In this document: positions 47,610 to 49,070 of the stretch, piece by piece
Layout: each line of letters opens with the position of its first letter
Numbering within the stretch: position 1 is the stretch's first letter
Assembly: GCF_000002875.2 (NCBI RefSeq)
Contig: NC_009420.2
Location: 1,650,951-1,714,950 of the forward strand
Source of the DNA: Leishmania infantum JPCM5
Taxonomy: Eukaryota; Euglenozoa; Kinetoplastea; Trypanosomatida; Trypanosomatidae
DNA length: 64,000 nt
Reading direction: 5' to 3'
Made by a program: the position numbers and the translations under genes
The notes under the pieces: generated by a model
Told to the model about the DNA's origin: nothing
Database searches by the model: none
The model's input: only the letters and a program-made list of their open reading frames with translations

Positions 47610-49070
47610 ATGCAGATGATGATGCGACTCCACATCCGCGTTGCATTGACATCGCTGCCAAGCAGCAGAGGTTACGTCTCCAAGGAGGGCGGCTACCTCG
47701 GCACTCGCCGGCCCGCTTCGCAGGCCACCTCGTCTGTGGGCTTCTCGGCGAGCATGTCGGCATCTTCGTCGAATGCGCTCGGCACATCCTCCGCCCGTAT
47801 CAAGCCCTCGTCTTACCTGTATTGCTCATTCATGGGCCACTCCACACGCTTTGCCGCGATGGCGCCTCCGCTTACACGCGCCGGTATCACGCAGCTGGAA
47901 CGCGAGCCTCTGGCGCATAGCACCCCTGGCCGCATCAACGACCACATTTGCATTGGTATGGTCAAGACGCTGCGCTGGCTGGCCGATCGCGCCTTTCGTG
48001 AGCGGTACATCCACCGAGCAACAATGCTGGTAACCGTTGCGGCTGCAGCTCCAGCAGCGGGCTCTGTGGCGGCGTATTTACGCATGCTCTTCAGGCGGAG
48101 CAACAGCAGCAGCGCCTGCACAGGCGATTCACAGATGCCCACAACAGCCGAAGCGAGCTCCCCGTTTCTGGCCTTTGGCGGCTCTCCAAGTGCCGGCGCC
48201 GCCCCACCTATTCCTCCTGCGTGCCGCTCCTTCGCCATGGCGCGCCCCTCACTCTACATGTCTACGTCCAGCGCCACCATGGAAGGAACAGGGTCGACAC
48301 CAGAGCATTCCTATGTGGACGAGCTCCGCGGCCTGCTTGCGCAGTGCGAGAGCCACGCCGTTCATTACCAGGTACTGAGCTGCATGGCCGAAATCACCCT
48401 TCTTGAGCGCGGTCTCGTACTCCTGCTGCAGGCAGTACACTTTACCATTTACCTGGCCTTGTTTCTCCTCTATCCGCGCATGGGCTTTCGGCTCATGGCT
48501 TACACAGCGGAGGAGTCCTCTGTGGTGTGGACGCAGATGGTGAACGATGTCGACCTTGGCAAGATTGCCGAGCCGCGTGTGCCGCAACTGGCACTGCACT
48601 ACTGGGGCCTAGAGGGGGTCTTTACCGCACAGGCGGCGCCACTGCCGAAAACGGTGGCTCCGCAGGAGCAGGAGGCGGCTCTCTACAAGACCAGCGAGGG
48701 ACTTGTGACAGAACAGATCCCTGTTACTGACGCGCCGATATCGGGTGCCTCGCCGGACGGTGGCGATAACGGCCATCGGGCTGCAACGCCTCTGTCACGA
48801 TCCGCCGACCACGTGCCTGTGCCTTTCGCGGCGGCGGGTTCTTGCGACGACAGCGCTGTGGACAGTAAGGAGAGCGAAGAGCGCGTCATCACTACCTCCG
48901 ACCGTGGCGCCGGCCCGGGGGCGTCCGTCTTGACGCTGCGCGATGTTGCACTGCTCATCCGCTCTGATGAGATGATCTTCCGCGACCTGAATCACGAATT
49001 GGCGAATAAGCTGGACATGCAGCCGAGCTGGACGCAGCGCCTCTTAGCATCCCTCGGCGGAGAGAAGTAG
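47610..49070 (+). CDS. Alternative-oxidase-fold protein lacking several diiron ligands (probably mitochondrial)
   Basis: 486 aa. The first ~25 residues are Arg-rich without acidic residues until Glu26, typical of a mitochondrial presequence. Four blocks match the alternative oxidase (AOX) helices in order. YIHRATMLVTVAAAAP (133-148) corresponds to the LETVA helix. ESHAVHYQ (247-254) corresponds to the NERMH helix. RLMAYTAEESS (294-304) corresponds to the GYLEEEA helix. LRDVALLIRSDEMIFRDLNH (443-462) corresponds to the RADExxHRxxNH helix. Of the six iron ligands, the first Glu is Val141, the Glu of ExxH is His249 and the last His is Phe457. His252, Glu301/302 and Glu454 remain. Two low-complexity inserts (~163-235 and ~340-440) separate the helices. 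Canonical AOX oxidises ubiquinol and reduces O2 on the matrix face of the inner membrane; this protein probably cannot. A structural or regulatory role is inferred. Confidence 0.75.
   Translation: MQMMMRLHIRVALTSLPSSRGYVSKEGGYLGTRRPASQATSSVGFSASMSASSSNALGTSSARIKPSSYLYCSFMGHSTRFAAMAPPLTRAGITQLEREPLAHSTPGRINDHICIGMVKTLRWLADRAFRERYIHRATMLVTVAAAAPAAGSVAAYLRMLFRRSNSSSACTGDSQMPTTAEASSPFLAFGGSPSAGAAPPIPPACRSFAMARPSLYMSTSSATMEGTGSTPEHSYVDELRGLLAQCESHAVHYQVLSCMAEITLLERGLVLLLQAVHFTIYLALFLLYPRMGFRLMAYTAEESSVVWTQMVNDVDLGKIAEPRVPQLALHYWGLEGVFTAQAAPLPKTVAPQEQEAALYKTSEGLVTEQIPVTDAPISGASPDGGDNGHRAATPLSRSADHVPVPFAAAGSCDDSAVDSKESEERVITTSDRGAGPGASVLTLRDVALLIRSDEMIFRDLNHELANKLDMQPSWTQRLLASLGGEK

Follow-up and report, generated by a model that had tools for sequence, protein, structure and literature searches.

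A conserved alternative oxidase paralogue of Leishmania infantum and other trypanosomatids that has probably lost its oxidase activity

We analyzed a stretch of 64,000 nucleotides from Leishmania infantum JPCM5 (contig NC_009420.2, positions 1,650,951 to 1,714,950 of the forward strand; C36:1650951-1714950 in the 32.07-Mb, 75-contig assembly), from here on the window, in which an initial annotation had placed a gene for an alternative oxidase (AOX)-derived protein with replaced iron ligands. This gene, on the + strand at 47610..49070, is likely to encode a conserved, catalytically dead AOX paralogue, here called pseudo-AOX, which is found across trypanosomatids and does another job in the mitochondrion. 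The list of open reading frames (ORFs) contained an ATG-to-stop frame of 486 amino acids spanning this interval exactly, and its third-position GC was 0.71, versus 0.69-0.76 in four other ORFs of the window. The protein matched the Pfam AOX family (PF01786) from residue 94 to 466, over positions 4-216 of the 216 in the profile, with E = 1.3e-51 and a score of 175.7 bits (cut-off, 22.7), which rules out a chance similarity and bears out the assignment in the annotation. At E up to 1, no Pfam family other than AOX was found. We ruled out COQ7 and the remaining ferritin-like diiron families, since they matched the protein far more weakly than the trypanosome alternative oxidase of Trypanosoma brucei did (TAO; PDB 3vv9/3w54, Tb927.10.7090), and the COQ7 Pfam profile gave no match at E up to 1. 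An NCBIfam scan of three family members gave no match at E up to 1 either. At the top of the database matches stood P0001, an entry labelled as the alternative oxidase of Leishmania donovani, which differs by one residue, at position 44. No second AOX was found by the profile search, which returned this gene only; the single-copy statement is thus valid for the 75-contig assembly and the profile search used.

The homologue searches scored only the approximately 8,000 candidates with the most shared words, and further members are possible. Besides P0001, 29 homologues were retrieved, 19 of them named for trypanosomatids (Leishmania, Porcisia, Novymonas, Leptomonas, Angomonas, and Trypanosoma) and 10 without a name; this range rests on the species that yielded matches, and no T. 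brucei-named match was among the homologues from these candidates. The alignment had 30 rows, i.e., the 29 homologues and the window protein, and P0001 was left out since it repeats the window protein apart from a single residue. When scanned against Pfam at E up to 0.01, AOX was found in all 30 and no other family was detected. Five Trypanosoma members (P0020, P0023, P0025, P0027, and P0028) carry the database name 'GTPase activating protein of Rab-like GTPase', apparently a propagated misnaming, as Pfam shows AOX alone.

In AOX, the residues E123, E162, E213, and E266 bind the irons directly, and two His are hydrogen-bond partners (PMC4682143). Our TAO reference was a partial sequence with letters taken from PDB matches, and its numbering was consistent with PDB 3vv9 (E162, H165) and with the ligand lists in PMC9246349 and PMC4682143. 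The alignment confirmed that the ligand segments follow the order given in the annotation, and Glu was absent from the positions of E123, E162, and E213 in every one of the 30 members. The E123 position, Val141 in the window protein (codon 48030..48032, +), was Val in 16, Lys in 11, Leu in 2, and Thr in 1; that of E162, His249, was His in 29 and Ala in member P0024; and that of E213, Ala300 (codon 48507..48509, +), was Ala in 19, Gly in 8, Asn in 2, and Tyr in 1. At the H269 position, Phe457, we found Phe (14), Trp (9), or Tyr (7) and His in 0/30, and the catalytic Tyr220 was Trp in 30/30 (Trp307, codon 48528..48530, +). Both H165 (His252) and E266 (Glu454) were kept in all members, the latter being the only iron-binding Glu left. 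Four of the six ligands are replaced, including three of the four direct iron-binding Glu and one of the two His, and so is the catalytic Tyr.

The annotation had counted three substituted ligands, and Val141, His249, and Phe457 do stand at ligand positions, but it missed the fourth, Ala300. To arrive at three, the annotation must have read a Glu of 'AEESS' as the helix-5 ligand. In the ungapped register, YTAEESSVVWT lies against YLEEEAVITYT of TAO, so that E213 falls on Ala300, E214 and E215 on E301 and E302, and Tyr220 on Trp307. A shifted alignment that would restore the ligands was ruled out, as residues 133-167 contain zero acidic residues and helix 5 aligned without gaps. From the ligand loss, we infer that the diiron centre and the oxidase activity are absent; since no such centre would be carried, the protein would not reduce oxygen. 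An engineered Ciona AOX with four diiron-site residues changed (E239A/H242A/E344A/H347A) was stable and inactive (PMC4682143), and by analogy this supports the inactivity of a ligand-poor AOX; that protein is man-made, whereas the trypanosomatid one is natural and conserved and carries other replacements.

As a control, we used 80 bacterial AOX loci, the best 80 of 577 relatives located by DNA patterns. Their ORFs were picked by BLAST score (80/80), and a pick by ligand motif (70/80 loci) was dropped as circular. All six ligands and Tyr220 were present in 80/80, although E162 and H165 have no independent control in this set because all 80 loci carry the search motif ENERMHLM. A second, motif-free bacterial sample was drawn by profile and gave matches in 10/299 genomes. 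The starting genome was among these ten; eight of the other nine kept all seven residues, and Tyr was found at position 220 in 9/9. The exception was L094 (bacterial genome G299, C17:157596-158174), an AOX-profile match of 235 bits in which E162 is Gln, E213 is Ala, and H269 is Gln, while E123, H165, E266, and Tyr220 are kept. It is like pseudo-AOX in being a natural AOX relative without E162, E213, and H269, but differs in that it keeps E123 and Tyr220, has no long linkers, and is 35% identical to TAO. Ligand-poor AOX relatives may extend beyond trypanosomatids.

The core of the protein is under constraint. Over 190 core positions (145 in the partial P0022), identity to the window protein was 55-99% in the 29 others, whereas the N-terminus and linkers gave 8-83%, below the core in all 29. 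TAO has the same residue as at least 95% of the 80 bacteria at 67 positions. Of these, 33 were conserved in 90% or more of the family, 23 were missing from every member, and 11 were intermediate; when the eight motif-fixed positions (160-167) were removed, 18/59 were missing from every member. Those kept include R96, D100, R118, R180, Q187, R207, E214, E215, D265, E266, R270, and H274, and those lost besides the ligands include G130, M131, V132, E158, N161, R163, L166-F169, Y198, H206, and A216. With a homologous fold, catalytic residues replaced across orthologues, and a constrained core, this is an AOX-family pseudoenzyme, as the annotation had proposed.

The relationship to TAO was analyzed with a tree of the 30 members, 16 of the 80 bacterial loci, and one partial TAO, the sole other eukaryotic AOX included. 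A branch with 100/100 support divided the family from TAO, which grouped with the bacterial AOX. We read this as a separation with an undated duplication, since TAO sits on a long branch (1.82) and the bootstrap had not settled. Trypanosoma congolense carries a family member (P0030) and also a true AOX, more than 80% identical to T. brucei TAO (PMC12406258). As this species has both and the tree splits the family from TAO, pseudo-AOX is a paralogue existing side by side with TAO, from which it differs in its replaced E123, E162, E213, H269, and Tyr220, its long linkers between helices 2 and 3 and upstream of the last helix, and its separate clade. The suggestion in the annotation that the protein illustrates the loss of AOX from the Leishmania lineage is therefore not supported, as Trypanosoma species share these substitutions, among them T. 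congolense with its true TAO.

Sequence and predicted structure together indicate that the AOX helical fold is retained, with a membrane-type helix and the quinol-side Arg and Asp residues. The N-terminus (residues 1-27, 47610..47690, +) is of the presequence type proposed in the annotation, with four Lys/Arg, the first acidic residue at 26, and an amphipathic stretch in the first 11 residues; basic at first and acidic only from residue 26 on, it appears to resemble many mitochondrial presequences. In the predicted structure, the predicted local distance difference test (pLDDT) score stayed below 50 up to residue 63. Helix 1 of the model (residues 109-128, 47934..47993, +) keeps R122 and D126, the counterparts of TAO R96 and D100, and the helix 2 region (residues 133-167, 48006..48110, +), where V141 replaces E123, keeps R136, the counterpart of R118. 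We take R96, D100, and R118 to lie on the quinol side of TAO. The first variable linker (residues 164-236, 48099..48317, +) is longer than in canonical AOX, the E123-E162 spacing being 47-127 in the 30 members versus 39-40 in the 80 bacteria. It is followed by helix 3 (residues 235-259, 48312..48386, +), with H249 and H252, and by the hydrophobic, membrane-type helix 4 (residues 264-287, 48399..48470, +), whose hydropathy, taken alone, was 2.31 versus 2.26 for its TAO counterpart. In the middle of helix 4, a family-specific His277 (48438-48440) was found in 30/30 members, where TAO has Met190 and the bacteria have Phe (80/80). The second variable linker (residues 337-440, 48618..48929, +) is probably disordered, with pLDDT below 50 at residues 352-436 and a Tyr220-E266 spacing of 81-193 in the family versus 44 in 80/80 bacteria and 46 in TAO, and it stands upstream of the last ligand helix (residues 443-470, 48936..49019, +), which contains E454 and F457. 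Over much of the two linkers, the predicted structure is of low confidence.

Import into the mitochondrion is probable, and the protein would sit at the inner membrane, on the side facing the matrix. There, the emptied helix bundle would still offer a pocket of quinone or quinol size, and the protein would serve respiratory enzymes as an adaptor that binds quinone or lies at the membrane surface, with no redox chemistry of its own. The kept quinol-side residues would agree with a quinol-binding or structural component, as put forward in the annotation, but this mechanism, taken alone, is speculative, and although it is the likeliest of those weighed, we hold it with less than even confidence.

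Several observations weigh against a dead, adaptor-like protein. Ligand loss by itself is uninformative on function, because L094 lacks ligands and keeps Tyr220, and the excess loss at the metal site was modest (5/7 versus 18/60, Fisher p = 0.042; without the motif-fixed positions, 4/5 versus 14/54, p = 0.027). A single metal ion could be bound by H249, H252, and E454, leaving the lack of metal unproven. In the region of the quinol-side residues, A216 is changed to Ser and T219 to Val or Ile, so the protein may bind quinone less well or not at all. The losses extend to helix 2/3 residues near 130-132 and 161-169, which makes an AOX-like dimerisation doubtful; as TAO subunits contact each other through helices 2, 3, and 4 (PMC4682143), the dimer surface may be remodelled.

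A link to T. brucei was obtained from gene order. Downstream of pseudo-AOX, the first gene to give a domain match, at 49979..52672 on the + strand, encodes gamma-tubulin complex component 2 (GCP2), as indicated by its Pfam GCP domains and by the four best PDB rows, all named GCP2; the only other GCP_C match found in the assembly was on contig C30. T. brucei GCP2 is Tb927.10.9770 (PMC3988969), so Tb927.10.9760, numbered beside it and called alternative oxidase, is probably the orthologue, GCP2 serving as the synteny anchor. In the increased-mRNA table of a heat-shock study (PMC3616968), whose columns we took from the footnote as RNA-seq, microarray, and bloodstream/procyclic ratio, Tb927.10.9760 has values of 2.1, 2.1, and 1.1, and TAO 13.6, 4.4, and 5.0. 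Elsewhere, the TAO protein is equated with the Tb927.10.9760 mRNA (PMC5015846), both genes are placed under one enzyme (PMC5737535), and 'both alternative oxidases' are counted in PMC8312217, in which high-mass native-gel strips of Phytomonas serpens mitochondrial protein contained orthologues of Tb927.10.9760 and TAO together with complex I and ATP synthase. These papers treat as an oxidase what is probably the same gene as pseudo-AOX, and if it is, their statements need rereading. The native-gel detection is evidence of expression and not of a partner; that TAO and ATP synthase were also in the strips means that no specific partner can be drawn from them, a further point against the adaptor proposal.

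Papers deny AOX to Leishmania and Leptomonas, and databases list one. Leptomonas seymouri is described without AOX in PMC4552786, and P0012, its family member, bears the name alternative oxidase; Leishmania tarentolae is described without TAO in PMC6430614, and P0004 is its family member. A 1998 title on the absence of AOX in Leishmania is cited in the reference list of PMC10874023, and the cyanide-insensitive respiration of L. donovani was unaffected by salicylhydroxamic acid (SHAM) according to PMC3988864. This published absence fits an AOX by descent and not by activity, which resolves the contradiction: the gene is present and the iron site is gone. No report of ligand loss in this family appeared among the listings and excerpts obtained by searching open-licence PMC main texts. 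Because African trypanosome AOX is a drug target, counting pseudo-AOX as an oxidase would mislead target lists, metabolic models, and studies of expression. That a dead oxidase is kept from Trypanosoma to Leishmania, in one species next to a live one, points to an unrecognised mitochondrial function, and the database 'oxidase' of Leishmania and its relatives probably does this other job.

Four other explanations were weighed. That pseudo-AOX is an accessory subunit of a respiratory complex, i.e., complex I or a supercomplex, with the AOX fold as scaffold, would agree with the P. serpens orthologue being in strips with complex I, and new partners would be suited by the length and variability of the linkers and by the changes at helix 2-3 positions; we regard it as unlikely, because TAO and ATP synthase share these strips, the authors put the orthologue beside and not among the complex I proteins, and it is unnamed for S. 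podlipaevi in the excerpt of PMC8312217. A new enzyme, whose bundle would hold a different, probably single-metal site (H249 and H252, E454, and D453 nearby) for new chemistry, perhaps on quinone, is suggested by His in place of E162 in 29/30, by H252, D453, and E454 in 30/30, and by the family-specific invariants S303, W307, M310, N312, D313, K318, and H277, which suggest a new constrained function. Lys at the E123 position in 11/30 and Val, Leu, or Thr in the rest are poor metal binders, and P0024 has Ala for H249, so we give this explanation a rather low probability. With slightly less confidence still, the bundle may have been rebuilt into a trypanosomatid mitochondrial quinone-handling protein with its own centre, either one metal on H249/H252/E454 or a metal-free pocket; the latter would have Lys or an uncharged residue at the E123 position and the invariant Trp307 for the redox Tyr. 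We know of no AOX with the chemistry or regulatory role proposed for such a rebuilt bundle.

A working alternative oxidase, as implied by the database names for L. donovani and others and by the wording of PMC8312217 and PMC5737535, is very improbable when Tyr220 and four of the six ligands are missing, L. tarentolae is said to be without TAO, and SHAM had no effect in L. donovani. A remnant of an ancestral TAO, in decay since the Leishmania lineage lost AOX, has a similarly slim chance; no second AOX match in the assembly would suit it, but T. congolense shares the substitutions and has a true TAO, the clade stands apart from TAO with 100/100 support, the core is conserved while the linkers drift, and the 486-codon frame is open in the window, the other members being known as predicted proteins.

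Among the window neighbours, Pfam identified a CHAP domain (3912-6161), a SET domain (6576-8519), a C2 domain (20057-24934), a proteasome-type AAA ATPase (35290-36582), a DEAD-box helicase (55301-58594), and an asparaginase (62776-63912). The Rfam scan of the window gave zero matches at gathering scores, and the sigma-70 and terminator scan was uninformative for a kinetoplastid. Two runs of exactly 100 N, at 43121-43220 and 46423-46522, are probably assembly gaps; both lie within an apparent ORF of 1786 amino acids (41262-46622), which, like its length, is unreliable because of them.
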